Positions 2,643-47,552 of a DNA stretch of 55,000 nucleotides are shown here, piece by piece (position 1 is the stretch's first letter; the number at the start of each line of letters is the position of its first letter). The notes below the pieces were generated by a model. The model worked only from the letters and a program-made list of their open reading frames with translations, made no database searches and was not told where the DNA came from. Source of the stretch: Pyrinomonadaceae bacterium (GTDB lineage: Bacteria; Acidobacteriota; Blastocatellia; Pyrinomonadales; Pyrinomonadaceae). Made by a program: the position numbers and the translations under genes. The stretch is taken from the NCBI GenBank assembly GCA_025054715.1, contig JANWYH010000001.1, forward strand, positions 1-55,000, given 5' to 3'.

Positions 2643-5399
2643 ATGAAGCATAACCTTTTCAAAACTAAACAAACTTTCAAGACTGGTGACGGACGGGATG
2701 GTCAGTTTTACTCGCTTCCGCAGCTAGAAAAAGAAGGCATAGGCAGAATTTCGCGTCTACCCGTTTCAATTCGCATAGTACTGGAATCGCTTTTGAGAAA
2801 TTTTGATGAGGGTGAGAAGATAAGCGAAGATCACATCAGAAAGCTTGCAAATTGGGGACCTAATGATGAAAGGACTGATGAGATTCCATTTATTGTTGCT
2901 CGTGTAATTTTACAAGATTTTACGGGTGTTCCATTGCTTGTTGATTTGGCTGCAATGCGTTCAGCTGTTTCGAGAATGGGTCGTGACCCAAGGCTTATCG
3001 AACCACTTGTTCCAGTTGATTTGGTTGTCGATCATTCGATTCAGGTTGATTATGCAGGTTCTCAAGAAGCTTATCAAGCAAACTTGGAGAAGGAATTTGA
3101 GCGCAACGCTGAGCGCTACCGTTTCTTAAAGTGGGGAACTCAAGCTTTTAACTCATTTAGAGTTATTCCGCCAGGTGTCGGAATTGTTCATCAGGTAAAT
3201 CTTGAGTATCTGGCAAAAGGAGTTTTTGAACGTGATGGAGTTTATTTCCCTGATACTTTGGTTGGCACGGATTCTCACACGACCATGATAAATGGTTTAG
3301 GAATTGTTGGTTGGGGCGTAGGTGGAATTGAAGCCGAAGCAGCGATGCTAGGTCAGCCAATGTATTTTTTAACGCCTGATGTCGTTGGAGTTCATCTGAA
3401 AGGTCGCCTGCGAGAAGGAGTTACAGCTACAGATTTGGTTTTAAGAATTACCGAGATGTTGCGTCAAGCAAAAGTAGTTGGTAAATTTGTTGAGTTTTTT
3501 GGTGAAGGTGCTAGAAATTTACCGGCGACTGACAGAGCCACGATTGCTAACATGGCTCCTGAATACGGTGCCACTATGGGCTTTTTCCCTATTGATGAAA
3601 GGACTCTGGACTATTTCCGTGCGACCGGAAGAAGTGAAGAGCATGTCGAAACCATAAAGAACTATTTTGAAGCACAAGGAATGTTCGGGATTCCTCTCGA
3701 AGGCGAGATAGATTATTCGACAGTTCTTGAACTTGATCTATCTTCGATCGAACCCTCCGTAGCAGGACCGAAACGCCCACAAGACAGAATTTCTCTTTCT
3801 GAAGTTAAATCAAAGTTTAGGGAGCTTTTTTCAAAGCCGATAACGGAAAACGGTTACAATAAGCCTGCTGAAGAACTGACAAAGCGCTTTAAGGTTGAAC
3901 TAAGCACTAATGGGCAAGAATCTAGACGACTGCCGCTTTATGGCGAAAAATTGCTCAATGTCGCACAGACAGAAATTGGACACGGAGATATTTTGATAGC
4001 TGCTATCACCTCTTGCACAAATACTTCTAATCCCAGCGTCATGCTTGCGGCAGGCATTCTAGCAAAGAAGGCTGTTGAGCGAGGTTTGAAAATTTCTCCT
4101 AAGGTAAAGACTTCTCTAGCTCCTGGTTCTCGTGTTGTAACTAAATACTTGCAGAAGACAGGGCTTCAAAGCTATCTCGATAAACTCGGGTTCAATCTAG
4201 TAGGTTACGGTTGCACAACATGTATAGGGAATTCTGGTCCGTTGCACCCAGCAATTGAGAAAGCTATTGTTGAAAATGATATAATAGCCTGCTCGGTTCT
4301 TTCAGGAAATAGAAATTTTGAAGCACGTGTGCATCAGAACATAAGAGCAAATTTTCTAGCTTCGCCACCGCTTGTTGTAGCATACGCTATTGCAGGAACA
4401 GTCAACATAGACCTCGCAAGAGAGCCTATAGGAAAAGACGCACAAGGGCAAGATGTTTTCTTAAAGGATATCTGGCCAACAAGCGAAGAAATACAATCAA
4501 TTTTTAACGAAGCTTGTAGAGCCGAAGATTATAAGGAAATTTACAGTAGGCTTTCTGAGTTTAATCCTTTGTGGAACAAAATTCCATCACCGACAGGGCT
4601 GATATATGAATGGGATGAGAACTCAACGTACATCCAAGAGCCGCCTTATTTCGAGGATTTCTCGATGGAAGACGGAGAGTTTGAAGATATTTTAGGCGCC
4701 AGAGCGCTGGCAATTTTTGGCGATTCTGTAACAACCGATCACATTTCACCTGCAGGTGCTATTAAGCCTGATTCACCTGCCGGGCGGTACTTGCAAGAGA
4801 AAGGGGTTCATCCGAAAGACTTCAATTCATACGGATCAAGGCGAGGAAATGACCGCGTGATGCTTCGTGGCACTTTTGCAAACGTTAGAGTAAAGAATTT
4901 AATGGTTGCACCAAAAGAAGGTGGATATACGATTTATCAGCCAGATGGGACCGAAATGACGATCTATGATGCAGCAATGAGATATAAGGCGGAAGGTGTT
5001 CCCACTTTGGTATTCGCAGGTCAAGAGTATGGAACCGGAAGCTCTAGAGACTGGGCAGCTAAGGGAACAAAACTTATGGGTATAAGAGCCGTGATTGCAC
5101 AAAGCTTTGAGAGAATACACCGCTCGAATCTTGTCGGAATGGGTGTTCTTCCTTTACAGTTCTTAGAAGGCGATAGCGTTCAATCACTTGGAATCACCGG
5201 TCAAGAAACTTACGATATTCTTGGGCTAGCAGGAAATGAGGTAAAACCACGTCAGCTTGTTACATTGCGGATAAATCGTCCAGATGGTAAAACTCAAGAA
5301 ACTAAATTAGTTCTTCGTATTGATACGCCTATTGAATTGGAATACTACAAAGCAGGTGGAATTCTACCTTACGTTTTAAGGCAGCTTCTTAAAGTTTGA
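2643..5399 (+). CDS. acnA: aconitate hydratase A
   Basis: It interconverts citrate and isocitrate in the TCA cycle using a [4Fe-4S] cluster. Length (918 residues from ATG 2643) fits the AcnA/IRP1 family. Cluster cysteines are seen in SCTNTSNPS and [13 protein letters not shown] (Cys469, Cys535 and Cys538 if counted from the upstream ATG at 2610). Other family blocks are [26 protein letters not shown] in the swivel region and [16 protein letters not shown] prefer the start at 2643 because the protein then begins [12 protein letters not shown] like other AcnA proteins and is preceded by a GGGA stretch; the in-frame ATG at 2610 adds eleven residues. It is divergent from the histidine kinase and is the only TCA enzyme here apart from the E2 at 34.6 kb. 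Confidence 0.96.
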
Positions 5400-5460: not shown

Positions 5461-6438
5461 ATGAGTCAAGAAGAAAGAGAGCCCTTGAATCTTATACTTG
5501 AAGACTTCAAGCTTCACCTGGTATCTTCGGCCGAACTTGTAAAATCACGTGAGCCTTTAGGGGAGGAAAATAAGTTAAAATTTGCGCAAGAGAACGAAGA
5601 GAACGACTTACTCGAAGAGCTTGAATCTGGACAGCTACCCGCGCTTCCGCCGAGGAATAGAGCGCAACTTCAAATTCAATCACCTAATAAAGTGCGCTTT
5701 TACTGGTCTTTGAAATCTAACCCTTTTTCAACTTTGGAGAAAATATTAGGTGATAAAGCTTTTCATTATAGATTAGTCGCGAAACTTATAAACCAAACCG
5801 AAAAACTTGAAAAGATTTTTCCCATAGACGTTGCGGGTTCAGCATGGTTCGATGTTGATTCTGATTCGACTTATCAAGTTGAGGTAGGATTTTTTGCTCC
5901 TGGAAGACCCTTTATAAGACTTCTTTTTTCAAATGTAGTGCAAACACCACGAAATGCTCCTTCTAAGTTTTTCGATTGGTCAGCAGAGTTTGCAATTTCA
6001 ACAAAAGACTTCGTGCGAGTTTTGGATGTGACAGGTTTCAAGCAAGATGCTATTGAGCTTGCGCTTTCTTCTGACGACTTAGATGACGCTTCTGCAAAGA
6101 ATACCTTTATCAGCATATCAGGCACCGAGGATATGTCTTTCGATCCTTTAGAAATCCGATATGCTCTTTTTGCTTTAGCTTCAGGTTTGTCTCTAGAAGA
6201 CTTACGTGGACGCGTTTCAGCGGAATTTTTCGCATTTTTGCAAAGATTAGCTCTAGAAATGGGCGAGGCGTCTTTGGCCAGCAGAATTAAAACCACTATT
6301 TCAGAAAGTTTCGGAATTTCGCAAATAGAGGAAGAGGAAATCTCCCAAGAAACTTTTGGGGCTAGCTTAGTCGAATTTCGTAGACGCAAACCATCAAGAA
6401 GATTACCGAAAATTTCTCCTGTTAGCTCGCTTCGTTAG
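5461..6438 (+). CDS. DUF4912 domain protein
   Basis: A 325-residue soluble protein with no signal peptide. After an acidic, low-complexity N-terminal 70 residues, the middle (about 75-185) resembles DUF4912. It has an aromatic strand (VRFYWSL), a GSAWFDVDSDSTYQVEVGFF block and SNVVQTPRNAPSKFFDW, matching the family pattern of a Tyr-Trp strand, a small-molecule-like sandwich and an SN.V.TPR motif. The C-terminal part is helical and charged and ends in a basic tail. DUF4912 genes are often next to GH57 (DUF1957) glucan-branching enzymes, as here, so a role in polysaccharide binding or glycogen metabolism is a reasonable inference. No catalytic residues are recognisable. Confidence 0.7.
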   Translation: MSQEEREPLNLILEDFKLHLVSSAELVKSREPLGEENKLKFAQENEENDLLEELESGQLPALPPRNRAQLQIQSPNKVRFYWSLKSNPFSTLEKILGDKAFHYRLVAKLINQTEKLEKIFPIDVAGSAWFDVDSDSTYQVEVGFFAPGRPFIRLLFSNVVQTPRNAPSKFFDWSAEFAISTKDFVRVLDVTGFKQDAIELALSSDDLDDASAKNTFISISGTEDMSFDPLEIRYALFALASGLSLEDLRGRVSAEFFAFLQRLALEMGEASLASRIKTTISESFGISQIEEEEISQETFGASLVEFRRRKPSRRLPKISPVSSLR

Positions 6439-6748
6439 GCTCTTAATGTAATCTTGAAAACTGTAACATAAGCACTTAATTAGCGAAGTTTTTTCTTTTT
6501 AGGCAAGAACGCTCTTTGCCCTGTGAGCTGGAGACGGCTTGTCTATTGAAAAACTACGAGGAATCAACGAGGAAACATCTCCTATAAAGTCAAATGTGAT
6601 GGGTTATTTGCCTTAGGTTTTAACATAACCAATTTAGGTCAATTCTTGTGTGGAAAATTTCTAGTTTGCACAAGGCAGATTAGAAAATGAAGTTTTGTAG
6701 TAGTATTTTTCTTTATTCAACGGGCTGTGCTAGTCTTTTGAGAAAGAT
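6439..6748 (+). other. 310-nt non-coding leader before the GH57 gene, possibly structured
   Basis: I see no gene. Several complementary segments occur: GGCAAGA/TCTTTGCC (6502-6520), GGTTAT/ATAACC (6602-6607 with 6625-6630), and TGCCTT in that hairpin's loop (6609-6614) with AAGGCA downstream (6672-6677). The last pairing competes with CTTGTG/CACAAG (6645-6650 with 6669-6674). A hairpin whose loop pairs downstream resembles the layout of the two RNA copies at 19.5 and 46.7 kb, and a TGTAGTAGT string also occurs here. However, I cannot align the primary sequence with those copies. It could be a regulatory leader or simply promoter DNA. Confidence 0.3.
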
Positions 6749-12011: not shown

Positions 12012-12947
12012 ATGAAAGTGGTTTTTGCGCTTGATTTAGGTGGGACTAATTTGAGAGCTTGTCTGGTGGATTCTGAAGGAAATATTCTTTGGCGGAAAAG
12101 AACGGAAACACCACGAGCTTCATTAGAAGTTTTAGTTGACCGAGTGGGTTTTCTGCTTAAGGAATGTAATCAGCACAATAACTGCGAAATTAAGGCAATT
12201 TCAATAGCTGCTCCAGCTGCTTTGAACGCCGAGAAGGGAATGATTTTGAAAGCACCTAACTTGCCTTATTTGGACGGAGTGAAAATTTGTGAAATTTTAG
12301 AAGATAGTTTCAAGCTTCCTTGTTTTCTTGAAAATGATGCAAACGCTGCAGCAATAGGTGAGCAAGCTTTTGGTGCAGCTGTTGGGAAGGAAGCTTTTAT
12401 AATGATTACGATTGGAACAGGAGTGGGAGGAGCTATATTTGTTCGTAACGAAATATGGCGTGGTTTGGATGGAACGGCTGGAGAAATCGGTCATATCTGC
12501 GTTGAACCTTTAGGTGTGCCTTGTGGTTGTGGTTCGAGAGGTTGTCTTGAGCAGTATGCATCTACATCCGCTGTTGTGAGGATGACGAAAGAGATGCGGT
12601 TTAAGTATCCTGAATCCCGGCTTCATAGTCGGCTAGTTTTCTCCTCAAAAGAAGTTTACGAAGCTGCTGTCGGGGCAGATGAGTTAGCATTGAAGGTATT
12701 TGAAAAGATGGGATTTTATCTCGGGATAGGGCTTGCCAGTTTAATAAATGTGTTGAATCCTGAGGCTATCGTAATAGGTGGTGGCGGTAGCAACGCCTGG
12801 GATGTTTTCATTTCGCATACAAGAGAGCAAATTCAAAAAAGAGCTTATAATGAGCCAGCCGAGCGTGCCACGCTATTGAAAGCTACTTTGGGAGATGATG
12901 CAGGCGTTTTAGGCGCTGCGAGGATTGCTTTTGAAGAGTTGTTTTAG
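12012..12947 (+). CDS. ROK-family sugar kinase (glucokinase-like)
   Basis: 311 residues from ATG 12012; a TTG at 12000 lies inside the probable -10 box. It phosphorylates a hexose, most likely glucose, with ATP. It has the phosphate-binding DLGGTNLRACLVD, the substrate/catalytic LENDANAAAIGE, TIGTGVGGAIF, the ROK signature ending GEIGHICVEPLG and a zinc-binding CGCGSRGCLEQYAS. The carboxy end has GGGGSNAWD and GDDAGVLGAA, as expected. No sugar transporter or regulator adjoins it, so the exact substrate is unproven. The following gene starts within a few nt, suggesting co-transcription with the winged-helix and trmH genes. Confidence 0.9.
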   Translation: MKVVFALDLGGTNLRACLVDSEGNILWRKRTETPRASLEVLVDRVGFLLKECNQHNNCEIKAISIAAPAALNAEKGMILKAPNLPYLDGVKICEILEDSFKLPCFLENDANAAAIGEQAFGAAVGKEAFIMITIGTGVGGAIFVRNEIWRGLDGTAGEIGHICVEPLGVPCGCGSRGCLEQYASTSAVVRMTKEMRFKYPESRLHSRLVFSSKEVYEAAVGADELALKVFEKMGFYLGIGLASLINVLNPEAIVIGGGGSNAWDVFISHTREQIQKRAYNEPAERATLLKATLGDDAGVLGAARIAFEELF

Positions 12948-19518: not shown

Positions 19519-19847
19519 TACTGAAAAGTCTTAGCAAGAATCCATTGACTCAAGAGCTCGTAAGCTGAAGGAGAGCAAGGCATGGGCGGGATGCAGAAAA
19601 GATGGCGAGTTTGCTTAAGGTAGCCCTTAGCTTTCCTGTTCTTGAGGGATATTTTGTGATAGGTTTTTCTTTAGTAGGGAAACGTTTAGCAGATTGGAAT
19701 TAGCAAAAAAATTAGTTCCTGCCAATGCAGGGACTATGGCTGACCTTAATACCGCCAGTCAGGGAGAGGTCAGCTTAAAAATGGCGGAATACAAATACCC
19801 TGACCTAAAGTGTAGTAGCATTCGAGCACTTTAGTTAACTAGAGGAG
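19519..19847 (+). ncRNA. structured RNA element, copy A, upstream of the SOD gene
   Basis: No ORF fits this gap (19438-19847). From about 19519 to the Shine-Dalgarno it aligns with 46663-47002. Helices seen: TTAAGG/CCTTAG around a TAGC loop (about 19615-19630); a 10-bp hairpin 19713-19722 with 19727-19736; and P2, GCTGACCT (19739-19746) with AGGTCAGC (19767-19774). The P2 loop holds CCGCCA (19752-19757) and GTCAGGG (19758-19764), complementary to TGGCGG (19782-19787) and CCCTGAC (19798-19804). A final 8-bp hairpin pairs 19805-19812 with 19827-19834. Helices differ from copy B by compensatory changes. A cis-regulatory leader is the best inference; a separate small RNA is possible. The preceding 80 nt (19438-19518) are purine-rich with no gene. 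Confidence 0.7.
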
Positions 19848-20537
19848 ATGAAAAGACGAGAAGCTATAACTTCGATTTTAACTTTAGGAGCAGGCGCTTT
19901 GGCTACTGGTTCTGGAATTTTTAAGGCAGAAGCTCGAGAGGTTCAAACTACTTATAAATTTAGCACTTACACACCTTTGACATATAATTTCGATGGTCTT
20001 AAGGGTCTCGACAAAGACATGCTCGAACAACATTACGCGCTTTATCGTGGTTACGTAAACAACACGAACAAGGCTCAATCAATAATGGCTGAGATGCTTG
20101 CTGCTGGAAAAGCTGATACTACGGAATTTTCTGAAGTTCGTCGCCGCCTTGGTTTTGAATATGCAGGAATGCGATTGCATGAATACTATTTCGGTATGCT
20201 AAAACCTGAAGGCTCACCCGTTGACGAAAAACTAAAAAGGGCGGTCTCAGCTTTTTGGGGAAGCTGGGAGAACTGGATTGCCGACATTACGAGAACTGCA
20301 ATGATGCGCGGTATCGGTTGGGCAATTTTATACTATGATCCTGTTACTAAGGGGTTGCAGAATTTCTGGATTGATGATCATGAAAACGGCAATCCACCAG
20401 GATTTGAGCCTATTTTTGTTTTGGACGTTTGGGAACATGCATACATCAAACAATTTGGCGCTGGCGGGCGTCGTGCATACATTGATGCTCTTTTGAAAAA
20501 CGTAGATTGGTCAGTGATAGCCAAAAGATTGCCTTGA
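19848..20537 (+). CDS. exported Fe/Mn superoxide dismutase
   Basis: 229 residues. A twin-arginine-like leader (MKRREAITSILTLGAGALA) indicates export to the periplasm. Metal ligands are His62 (LEQHYALYRGY), His111 (RLHEYYFG), and Asp193 and His197 (FVLDVWEHAYIKQFG), with the ENWIAD and FWGSW blocks of the family. The second-shell HH pair after the first ligand in classical SODs is replaced by YR and one residue is missing, so Tyr69 would serve as the gateway tyrosine. This start is fixed by the signal peptide, although AGAGGAG abuts the ATG with no spacer, which is unusual. It is preceded by structured RNA copy A. Confidence 0.88.
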   Translation: MKRREAITSILTLGAGALATGSGIFKAEAREVQTTYKFSTYTPLTYNFDGLKGLDKDMLEQHYALYRGYVNNTNKAQSIMAEMLAAGKADTTEFSEVRRRLGFEYAGMRLHEYYFGMLKPEGSPVDEKLKRAVSAFWGSWENWIADITRTAMMRGIGWAILYYDPVTKGLQNFWIDDHENGNPPGFEPIFVLDVWEHAYIKQFGAGGRRAYIDALLKNVDWSVIAKRLP

Positions 20538-34600: not shown

Positions 34601-36310
34601 ATGAGCGTAGAAGTTGTAATGCCTCAGATGGGCGAATCAATAGCAGAAGGAACGGTGTCGAAATGGTTGAAGAAAGTAGGCGAGAAAGTAGCAAAAGATG
34701 AGCCGATACTGGAGATTTCAACCGATAAGGTTGATGCGGAAGTTCCTTCGCCTGCCTCAGGTGTGATTTTGGAAATTAAGGTTAATGAAGGCGAAACTGT
34801 TCCTGTCGGAACCGTCGTCGCTTTGATAGGTGAGGAGAATGAAGCACCTAAAACAGAGGCAACGAAGCAAAGTGTGGCTGTTGCTGCTATCGAAAGCGAA
34901 AAAATCAAGGAAGTTCCTTCAGAGCCACAACGATCTGAAAAAAGCTTTGGTGCGGTAAGCGAGGTCGTAATGCCTCAGATGGGCGAATCAATAGCAGAAG
35001 GGACGGTGTCGAAATGGTTGAAGAAAGTAGGCGAGAAAGTAGCAAAAGATGAGCCGATACTGGAGATTTCAACCGATAAGGTTGATGCGGAAGTTCCTTC
35101 GCCTGCTTCGGGCGTGATTTTAGAGATCAGAGTTAACGAAGGCGAAACTGTTCCGGTTGGAACTGTCGTTGCTGTAATAGGAAAAGAAGGTGCTCAAGTG
35201 ACGGCGAAAGAGTCCAAAGAGGCTGAAATAACTGAATTTCATCAAGTCGCATCGGAGCAAGAAAAGGCAAATGTTGCTGTTGCTTCAATTAAGAGTGAAC
35301 AGAAAGAACGCGTCGAAGGCAATGGCAGTCAGATGACAGTCGAGGAACTACGTCGCAAAAAGTCTTCACCGCTTGTCAGAAGCATTGCCAAGAAGCATGG
35401 TATTGATATTTCAAAAATACAGGGCACTGGCGCAAGTGGACGTGTAACGAAAAAAGATATTTTGGCTTACATTGAATCTGGCGCCGCATTTAAGCCGCAA
35501 GATTTGATGGCAAAAGCTGAAAAAGCGCCCGTAGAAGCACCGAAAACCTCACTTCAAGTGGAAACGACAAAAGTCGAATATACACCGCCAGCGATTACTG
35601 CTTCTGTTGGCGATAGAGTAGAGCCGATGTCTGTGATGAGAAAGAAAATAGCCGAGCACATGGTCTTTTCAAAACGCACATCGGCACATGTTACGACCGT
35701 TTATGAAATAGACATGACGAATGTTGCTAGATTCCGCGATCAACACAAAGCGGAGTTTCAGGCAAGATATGGGACGAAGCTGACCTATATGCCTTTCATC
35801 TTTCAGGCAGTCGTTCAGGGTTTGCGGAAGTTTCCCATTATAAATGCTCAGGTATCTGGCGATCAGATAATTTACAAAGGCGACATAAATCTTGGCATGG
35901 CTGTAGCACTTGATTGGGGTTTGATTGTGCCGGTTATCAAAAAGGCGGATACTCTTTCTCTAGCGGGGCTTGCTTTAGCAGCAAATGATCTAGCTGAAAG
36001 AGCTAGGGCGAAGAAATTGACTCCGGACGAAGTTCAAGGTGGCACATTTACTGTGACGAATCCGGGAGTATTCGGAGGACTTTTCGGAACTCCGATTATC
36101 AATCAACCGCAAGTTGCAATTCTTTGTGTCGGGGTCATCGAAAAACGTCCTAAAGTGATTACGACACCAGAAGGAGACGATGTAATAGCTATTCGCCAGA
36201 TGGCTTACTTTGCCTTAACTTACGATCATAGAATCATTGACGGAGCGGATGCAGAGAAGTTTCTTTCTTTCATAAAAGAATATCTAGAAACGACGAAATT
36301 TAGTTTGTAA
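34601..36310 (+). CDS. 2-oxoacid dehydrogenase E2 (dihydrolipoamide acyltransferase) with two lipoyl domains
   Basis: 569 residues from ATG 34601 (GGAGAG upstream; the protein then begins MSVEVVMPQMGES as expected). Two N-terminal lipoyl domains carry lipoyl lysines Lys43 and Lys160 in STDKVDAEVPSPASG. A peripheral-subunit-binding domain follows (SPLVRSIAKKHGIDISKIQG), then the acyltransferase core with YDHRIIDG (His543, Asp547). GGTFTVTNPGVFGGLFGTPI resembles 2-oxoglutarate dehydrogenase E2 (SucB) more than pyruvate E2, so succinyltransferase is favoured but not proven. E1 and E3 are not adjacent. The two lipoyl domains are almost identical at DNA level. Confidence 0.9.
   Translation: MSVEVVMPQMGESIAEGTVSKWLKKVGEKVAKDEPILEISTDKVDAEVPSPASGVILEIKVNEGETVPVGTVVALIGEENEAPKTEATKQSVAVAAIESEKIKEVPSEPQRSEKSFGAVSEVVMPQMGESIAEGTVSKWLKKVGEKVAKDEPILEISTDKVDAEVPSPASGVILEIRVNEGETVPVGTVVAVIGKEGAQVTAKESKEAEITEFHQVASEQEKANVAVASIKSEQKERVEGNGSQMTVEELRRKKSSPLVRSIAKKHGIDISKIQGTGASGRVTKKDILAYIESGAAFKPQDLMAKAEKAPVEAPKTSLQVETTKVEYTPPAITASVGDRVEPMSVMRKKIAEHMVFSKRTSAHVTTVYEIDMTNVARFRDQHKAEFQARYGTKLTYMPFIFQAVVQGLRKFPIINAQVSGDQIIYKGDINLGMAVALDWGLIVPVIKKADTLSLAGLALAANDLAERARAKKLTPDEVQGGTFTVTNPGVFGGLFGTPIINQPQVAILCVGVIEKRPKVITTPEGDDVIAIRQMAYFALTYDHRIIDGADAEKFLSFIKEYLETTKFSL
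34616..34755 (+). repeat. lipoyl-domain direct repeat, unit 1
   Basis: This 140-bp segment of the E2 gene recurs 351 bp downstream (34967-35106) with a single mismatch (GAAGGAACGG versus GAAGGGACGG). The repeat keeps frame and spans the lipoyl lysine codon. Confidence 0.95.
34967..35106 (+). repeat. lipoyl-domain direct repeat, unit 2
   Basis: Second copy of the 140-bp unit at 34616. Identity drops sharply outside the unit (for example GCCTCAGGT versus GCTTCGGGC just after it), which suggests recent gene conversion or duplication limited to this stretch. Confidence 0.95.
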
Positions 36311-46662: not shown

Positions 46663-47002
46663 TACTGAAAAGCCTTAGGTAATTCATTGGCTCGGGAGTT
46701 TGCGAGACGAAGAGAAGGAGCAAGCGATGAATGGAGAACAAAAAGAATGGCAGGTTGATAAGGTAGCCTTTACCTTTCCTATTTCTAGTAAGTTTTTCAT
46801 CCCTGATAGGTTTTTCAACGGAGATTTCTTTTTTCTAAAATGGTTAAAGGGAATTAGGATAGGATGGTAGCTCTTGTGCTTGGTGCAAGGGTTACGACTA
46901 ACCCTAATGCCGCCAGTCAGGGAAGGGTTAGCTTGAAAATGGCGGGATATAAATTACCCTGACTTAAACTGTAGTAGTCTTAAAACTTTATTTAACCAGG
47001 AG
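46663..47002 (+). ncRNA. structured RNA element, copy B, upstream of the TlpA lipoprotein gene
   Basis: Homologous to copy A at 19519-19847 from a shared TACTGAAAAG...TTAG box to the Shine-Dalgarno. Helices: TAAGG/CTTTA around TAGC (about 46759-46772); CCTAT/ATAGG (about 46778-46809); a 10-bp hairpin 46867-46876 with 46886-46895; and P2, CTAACCCT (46898-46905) with AGGGTTAG (46924-46931). The P2 loop holds CCGCCA (46910-46915) and GTCAGGG (46916-46922), complementary to TGGCGG (46940-46945) and CCCTGAC (46957-46963). GTAGTAG (46971-46977) is also conserved. The preceding 248 nt (46415-46662) are purine-rich with no gene and may be part of a longer transcript. Confidence 0.7.
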
Positions 47003-47009
47003 TTTGACA

Positions 47010-47552
47010 ATGAAAAAATTAGCCTTGATTTTCATGGTCTTTTTTGTTTTTAGCTGTTCCACGAAAAATTCTATCAACGATAAATCTTTGAGTAGAAAGG
47101 GTGAGTATCCTTCTTTGCCGGAAGTCATTTTAAATGCGGGACATAGGGGACTGGAAGGACAAACCATCAGGCTCGCTGACTATAGAGGAAACGTCGTTCT
47201 CGTGAACTTGTGGGCTACGTGGTGCGGTCCTTGTCGAAAAGAGATACCTGTTTTGGTTGAGTTACAAGAAAGATACAAAGATGATGGATTGGTTGTTGTT
47301 GGGCTTGACGTTGATGAAAGTGAAAGCAAGGAATTAATAGAGGATTTTGCAAGACAGATGAAGATAAACTACACGTTGGGTTGGATCGATGCTAAAAGTC
47401 AGAAAGAATTTCTAAAACTGAGTCGCTTCGAGGGAGTTCCACAGTCATTTTTAATAGGACGTGAAGGAGAACTTATGGCAATTTTTACCGGTGGAAGTGC
47501 GGAAACGATTTCAAAACTTGAAGACTTCGTTGGAAGGGCGGTTCGGGAATAA
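47010..47552 (+). CDS. TlpA/ResA-like thioredoxin lipoprotein
   Basis: 180 residues from ATG 47010, with AGGAG 7 nt upstream; a TTG at 47004 is less likely. A lipoprotein signal ([16 protein letters not shown]) anchors it in the envelope. The thioredoxin domain has the redox pair [21 protein letters not shown] and the cis-Pro loop [10 protein letters not shown]. Such proteins reduce periplasmic disulfides, for example during cytochrome c maturation. RNA copy B precedes it, and the ABC ATPase gene follows after 2 nt. Confidence 0.92.

Follow-up and report, generated by a model that had tools for sequence, protein, structure and literature searches.

A knot of three crossing helices in the right-end RNA of TnpB-type insertion sequences, probably also a general mRNA leader

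The structured RNA that ends just before position 19848 of the window (the whole stretch of 55,000 nucleotides analysed here, from a Pyrinomonadaceae bacterium) and its second copy further downstream, copies A and B below, are, judged by sequence comparison, the right ends of TnpB-type (IS607-like) insertion sequences lacking the nuclease gene. They contain a compact core of three mutually crossing helices (P2, pk1 and pk2) followed by a hairpin (P3), and this core also occurs elsewhere on its own, directly ahead of start codons. We consider it probable that the right-end RNA carries a separable knot whose predicted function is that of a general mRNA leader, serving stability or translation, and that a transposon has captured it. 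An earlier sequence-only reading had described the crossing pairings of copy A and missed that the RNA is a TnpB-type right end and its core a leader element before start codons; the RNA also extends further 5′ than the feature described there, with two long stems (PA and PB) before P1. The features of the window are as follows.

19526..19621, + strand: PA, long 5′ stem of the transposon right-end RNA, common with the Thermus relatives (alignment, L005 fold, Thermus alignment; limits approximate)
19624..19712, + strand: PB, second long stem, its 3′ strand damaged in copy A (alignment and fold)
19713..19736, + strand: P1 hairpin, 10 bp, strands 19713-19722/19727-19736 (sequence, fold, copy comparison)
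19738..19775, + strand: P2, stem 19738-19745/19768-19775, its loop holding the 5′ strands of pk1 and pk2 (sequence, covariation)
19752..19756, + strand: pk1 5′ strand CCGCC, partner GGCGG at 19783-19787 (sequence, covariation)
19758..19764, + strand: pk2 5′ strand GTCAGGG, partner CCCTGAC at 19798-19804 (sequence, covariation)
19783..19787, + strand: pk1 3′ strand GGCGG (sequence, covariation)
19788..19797, + strand: conserved A-rich linker, AATACAAATA in copy A (family alignment, linker lengths)
19798..19804, + strand: pk2 3′ strand CCCTGAC (sequence, covariation)
19805..19834, + strand: P3 hairpin CTAAAGTGT/GCACTTTAG, strands 19805-19813/19826-19834 (fold, covariation)
19835..19847, + strand: right-end tail with AGAGG, abutting the start codon (in the family, TTAACCAGG plus 2-12 nt to the start)
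19848..20537, + strand: ORF 3′ of copy A, superoxide-dismutase-like, below NCBIfam cut-offs (profile search)
46663..47009, + strand: copy B, whole right-end RNA, start approximate, with a core match to covariance model R1 at 46862-47000 (DNA and model match)
47010..47552, + strand: ORF after copy B, ResA/TlpA-like thiol-disulfide protein, below cut-offs (profile search)

A 221-nt direct repeat of 92% identity (34610-34830 and 34961-35181), also in the window, is unrelated to the RNA.

A check of the sequence found P1, P2 and both loop-pairing segments of copy A where they had been reported, pk1 having been given as CCGCCA (19752-19757) with TGGCGG (19782-19787), and the paired substitutions between copies A and B at 19716/19733, 19719/19730 and 19742/19771 were correctly described. 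The extra P2 pair ascribed to copy B is indeed gained, beside the P2 loop, but copy B also has an A.C mismatch towards the base of P2. None of 200 shuffled sequences folds as well as the strand itself (z −3.5), and the strands of the core follow one another as P2a, pk1a, pk2a, P2b, pk1b and pk2b, with the P3 hairpin thereafter; the claim that the loop pairings cross each other and P2 thus stands (an A B C A′ B′ C′ arrangement), and covariation is seen in each of the three helices. Direct support for this fold comes from an alignment of 71 sequences made with a covariance model, R2, that holds no pseudoknot pairs, and it is this alignment that constitutes the covariation test, as the descriptor used to collect cores demands all three helices and its pair counts are therefore no test. 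Across P2, pk1, pk2 and P3, 97.1% of 2028 cells are standard pairs, and the complementarity whose loss in further homologues had been proposed as a refutation is accordingly retained; with the 3′ strands slid by 1–3 columns as a control, pairing is at most 48%. Two-sided changes are found in 25 of the 29 core pairs, a number that none of 500 shuffles equalled, and they affect 8 of 8 pairs in P2, 7 of 7 in pk2 and 1 of 5 in pk1, where four pairs are invariant and a C-G to G-C switch is present in 8 of the 71 sequences. The last two pk2 pairs vary compensatorily in copies beyond the two that had been compared earlier, from GG/CC to CG/CG, AG/CT or TG/TA. A smaller set of eleven sequences (nine from the window's genome, L022 and L028) has 11 of 39 pairs changed on both sides (0/500 shuffles), and 98.2% of helix cells are paired in the nine copies of the window's genome. 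The compact multi-pseudoknot, one of the two possibilities raised earlier, is thereby well supported.

The linkage to TnpB is supported directly by relatives of the element. In many genomes of the phylum to which L028 belongs (see below), a long reading frame extends into the RNA; in complete relatives, the last codons of a TnpB-related gene overlap the RNA, which reaches the element end (..TTAACCAGG), and the frame through the RNA (LVPADAGAMADQKPPV...) is the TnpB C-terminus. At L075 a 557-aa TnpB-related protein lies behind a 199-aa IS607 transposase, encoded at 3866-4465(-), which scores 230.8 bits with NF033518 (cut-off 110) and matches PF00239 and MerR, as members of the IS607 transposase family do; L076 and L077 have TnpB-related genes only. 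TIGR01766 scores above its cut-off in three relatives (67.5 bits for the L075 frame that overlaps the RNA), assigning them to the TnpB family, and both NF040570 (guided_TnpB, 52.7 versus a cut-off of 100) and PF07282 remain below theirs. L077 (G259) has three TnpB-type right ends, at 4179-4321, 6424-6567 and 12310-12452 (-), within a 17-kb ribosomal-protein/secY/adk/rpoA region, one of which accompanies a complete TnpB-related gene (560 aa) located between secY and adk. In the right-end RNA of L060 (G264:C10), a palindromic insert of roughly 50 nt (AATCGTGTTTCAAA...TTTGAAACACGATT), perhaps a second small mobile element, stands between PB and P1.

In the window's own genome, tblastn found only C-terminal TnpB pieces (query residues 391-556) at nine RNA-bearing loci and one N-terminal piece (residues 5-57) just upstream of one such locus, and the TnpB core model TIGR01766 had no match there at E ≤ 1 (controls positive in 9 of 14); it is because only such pieces, apparently of deletion derivatives, are present and TIGR01766 is unmatched that we read the window copies as nuclease-less right ends. 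In copy A, whose frame is broken, tblastn at E ≤ 10 finds nothing of TnpB; the probable tie of this copy to TnpB comes from aligning its DNA with that of the other copies and from the frame as read by eye. Several own-genome copies combine a broken frame with a core that still pairs, and decay is visible in PB of copy A, in P3 of copy B, and in L023 and L024. Among 113 of the 118 descriptor cores (three false ones and two with less than 100 nt upstream were left out), TnpB-related sequence lies at most 700 nt upstream of 50 of the 56 P1-bearing copies versus 7 of the 57 without a recognised P1. A structured RNA at the 3′ end of tnpB that reaches the element end corresponds to an omega RNA or reRNA, and by analogy with known TnpB systems the right-end RNA would act as the TnpB guide RNA. 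HEARO/IscB omega RNA and ribozymes were dropped as candidates for want of an Rfam match (in the RRXRR search for HEARO/IscB, the controls likewise gave no match), as was mobilisation by a Y1 transposase, none being found in the window's genome. The TnpB relatives described here score below the cut-off of a Cas12f/TnpB Zn-ribbon model, and the search with that model is blind to them.

The genome that contains the window (2.45 Mb in 23 contigs, 99% complete) has nine copies of the RNA according to blastn, which gave 15 rows with nine long matches, and eleven according to covariance model R1, built on the 3′ part, at E ≤ 2e-8; R1 returned 13 rows at E ≤ 1, among them L024 (E 0.009), which resembles a decayed copy, and a row at E 0.3 that resembles chance. 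R1 detected the RNA in none of the 161 further genomes searched from the class, and R2 in none of the 395 further genomes of the phylum sample. A pattern scan of named genomes gave 17 matches, of which the RNA model confirmed only L028, in a Hydrogenothermaceae MAG, the others being chance-like and mostly in GC-rich DNA. In the phylum of L028, which we infer to be the Aquificota, R2 found the RNA in 74 of 136 genomes at E ≤ 0.01, with up to 24 matches per genome. Given this abundance, and the absence of the RNA from class and phylum relatives, horizontal transfer is the most likely route by which the window's genome acquired it. Viral contigs gave 0 pattern matches, none of the 16 candidate stretches on them contained a TnpB relative, plasmids gave no DNA match to the RNA of L028, no Rfam family (RAGATH-18 included) matches the RNA above chance, and no description of it was found in the literature searched. 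The available portion of PMC4227106 lists 99 ncRNA candidates of A. aeolicus, some of which may be this RNA. The loci collected here are a non-random sample (about 30 taken by score; 20, 20 and 40 picked from match lists; and 10 more). Two right-end RNAs of the window's genome, L002 (C22) and L006 (C21), are near-identical from PA to pk2 and differ in P3 loops and flanks, a pattern that looks like gene conversion or recent copying. A further core of this genome (L022, C16:132192-132306) has no P1, PA or PB and precedes a gene read by eye as encoding a LysM-type protein; its P2, pk2 and P3 sequences have all diverged with pairing kept.

The placement of the elements was read from both flanks. 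Beside the conserved left end (..AACAGTTG..), the left flank carries AGGAG or AGGAGG in eight of ten TnpB-only elements, all read by eye, and TGGAGG or AGAGG in the remaining two. On the right, a start codon comes 2-12 nt after the GG of TTAACCAGG in 43 of 44 P1-bearing copies that have a recognisable end and an ORF of ≥50 codons. Taken together, these readings make the joined flanks AGGAGG-spacer-start, and by sequence the elements appear to sit in the ribosome-binding site and to offer an AGG of their own. GG is present both at the element end (..CCAGG) and at the target (flanks by eye), as is characteristic of IS607, and the landing site agrees with the GG exchange of IS607 (PMC6188088, PMC10711439) and the TAM AGGAG of the ISFba1 TnpB (PMC11061315), as far as the available portions of these sources describe them. 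In the window, copies A and B directly precede the superoxide-dismutase-like gene and the thiol-disulfide-protein gene, respectively; another own-genome copy lies between groES and groEL, and the genes downstream of the own-genome copies are unrelated to each other.

The knot can be absent from such right ends and present without them. Relatives of TnpB on Thermus plasmids (among the matches listed, identity is about 43% with 87-91% of the query covered) have right ends that align through PA, PB, P1, P3 and the GACCAGG end, with P2, pk1 and pk2 absent. The right ends L118, L119, L120 (G208) and L121 (G204) retain a short P2 hairpin, pk1 and pk2a being missing together, and the full knot is present in other copies of G208. 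About 50 of the collected cores, in turn, have no P1, PA, PB or TnpB trace. These comparisons support the independence of the module directly, P2/pk1/pk2 and P3 being, as judged from the sequences, a separable unit.

Stand-alone copies are placed as 5′ leaders. The start codon follows P3 by 12-20 nt in 44 of 47 (median 16), compared with about 8% at random positions, where the chance control covered only about 12-20 nt and the start-codon picker looked 60 nt ahead; an SD-like stretch lies between P3 and the start codon in 40 of 47. These counts exclude the false descriptor hits L036, L037 and L117 and treat copy B as P1-linked, and of the loci set aside as unclear (L129, L138-L141, L153 and L177) six were usable, and in each of these the start codon follows P3 at 12-20 nt. 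Ten leader genes are typed by NCBIfam (acpP, trxB, mreB, Hsp20-type (below cut-offs), hfq, hpf, rplI, rplQ, rpmF and rpoA), gene names throughout resting on profile matches or on protein starts read by eye. By protein starts, the same gene recurs behind a leader in five genomes for acpP, in three each for trxB, mreB, hsp20 and hfq, and in two each for rpoA and a ribonucleotide-reductase-like gene. Between the acpP leaders L132 and L165, P2, pk1 and pk2 all differ and all still pair; in the two rpoA leaders P2 and pk2 have diverged, again with pairing kept. With a simple promoter-scoring scheme made for this analysis, a site above the 95th percentile of shuffles was found in 15 of the 57 copies without a recognised P1 (about 3 would be expected, and some eight of these 57 are unclear or belong to TnpB right ends) versus 4 of 57 P1-bearing copies. 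In the former the −10 box often ends 9-13 nt before P2, which would place P2 at the mRNA 5′ end, and, as promoter-like sites are seen in only 15 of the 57, many leaders may lie between cistrons.

If the stand-alone copies are old right-end remnants, their leader role could be a by-product. In that case the knot would belong to the TnpB guide-RNA scaffold and its stand-alone copies would be functionless, a reading that we regard as unlikely though a genuine contender: about half of the collected copies do lie in TnpB right ends, right-end deletion derivatives are present in the window's genome, and remnants at start codons are to be expected of an element that lands on Shine-Dalgarno sites. Against it, the module is missing from the Thermus relatives and from L118-L121, and stand-alone copies recur before the same genes (most often acpP, then trxB, mreB, hsp20 and hfq), with compensatory changes separating L132 from L165 in all three crossing helices.

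The second possibility raised by the sequence-only reading, that P2 and the loop pairings replace one another, here as the states of a ligand- or protein-responsive switch, fares worse, and we hold it to be distinctly improbable. Its appeal lies in the leader position beside the ribosome-binding site and in the strongly conserved linkers, AATA and ATACAAATA among them, which could form a binding site. The alternative pairings are not conserved, however: P2a-pk2a and P2b-pk2b fall to 3 bp in L022 and L028, where the crossing set is intact, and P2a-pk2a is 3 bp in copy B too. The linkers are moreover short and nearly fixed in length, which suits a simultaneous fold, and the downstream genes lack the common pathway expected of riboswitch targets. 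The simultaneous knot, as a predicted fold, is much more likely than mutually exclusive states. Kissing hairpins formed by P2a-pk2a and P2b-pk2b were rejected because these pairings are lost in diverged copies, and an extra pairing of P1 with the tail (GGTTAG/TAACC) because it fails in GC-rich copies, as read by eye.

The chances are slim that the RNA is a self-cleaving ribozyme whose cut gives both the downstream message and the transposon transcript their 5′ ends. A multi-pseudoknot fold with conserved unpaired A-rich linkers, placed at cistron boundaries and used by a mobile element, would be in keeping with such an activity, but no Rfam family matches, no conserved candidate cleavage site was found outside the helices, and the promoter-like −10 box of some leaders already ends 9-13 nt before P2. 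Conservation of the reading frame (LVPADAGAMADQKPPV...) as a protein-coding remnant, rather than of an RNA, is largely refuted, for although the TnpB C-terminus frame is open in several copies, within the window's genome stops interrupt 4 of the 9 C-terminal matches that tblastn gave, the frame of copy A is broken, the helices of the nine copies stay paired, changes across the 71-sequence alignment follow base pairs, and the stand-alone leaders have no TnpB trace.

For the favoured explanation, a general leader captured by a transposon, the following mechanism is proposed. Placed at the 5′ end of an mRNA or at the boundary of two cistrons, the ABCABC pseudoknot and P3 would fold the RNA up to the ribosome-binding site and leave the Shine-Dalgarno stretch free, and the folded 5′ end would protect the message from 5′ decay and/or insulate the translation start. 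The transposon would land on a Shine-Dalgarno sequence (the AGGAGG left flank) and supply the leader together with a new AGG in its right end, such that the target gene could still be translated; an element that lands in ribosome-binding sites would profit from carrying the knot. A more specific version is offered tentatively, as a possibility to which we give less than even weight: the knot may be the general-purpose leader of a thermophilic phylum, bounding housekeeping mRNAs and blocking their decay, that was captured by Shine-Dalgarno-landing TnpB transposons, which restore leaders. It would then be a bacterial analogue of exoribonuclease-resistant RNAs, with each insertion returning a working leader. 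The family, absent from Rfam, brings a covariation-backed fold of three mutually crossing helices to the start codons of essential genes phylum-wide, and it ties an RNA-guided transposon lineage to host translation start through its Shine-Dalgarno target and the host-like leader in its right end. Message protection and start at high temperature, and the means by which transposons render insertions harmless, are thereby opened to test.

Among known systems, mRNA 5′ stabilisers and exoribonuclease-resistant pseudoknots are compact folds at or near mRNA 5′ ends, before the ribosome-binding site. The predicted knot shares with them a compact fold ahead of the ribosome-binding site, and differs from them in topology (three mutually crossing helices) and in phylum. 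The available portions of PMC11061315 and PMC10278001 describe IS200/IS605 omega RNAs that overlap the tnpB 3′ end; the RNA here likewise takes in the last codons of tnpB and extends to the end of the element, but its element has a serine rather than a Y1 transposase (L075), the ABCABC module is an addition, and its processing is putative. IS607-family elements cross over at GG, as given in the parts available of PMC6188088 and PMC10711439, and the serine transposase of L075 and the GG at right end and target conform to this; in contrast to that family as described there, the target here is a Shine-Dalgarno sequence, the right end carries a leader module and many copies have no tnpA. The closest likeness is to ISFba1, an IS607 TnpB element whose RAGATH-18-derived reRNA has, in the available portion of PMC11061315, two pseudoknots and the TAM AGGAG. 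According to the same portion, reRNAs of this type are independent of coding sequence with a 187-nt scaffold, the TnpBs average 390 aa, and RAGATH-18 is present in Rfam. By comparison, the RNA described here has no Rfam match and overlaps tnpB codons, its TnpBs are about 550 aa, and the RAGATH-18 reRNA pseudoknots are short and are described there differently from the present knot. Both, however, are right-end RNAs of IS607-type TnpB elements, and the AGGAGG left flank matches the TAM AGGAG.
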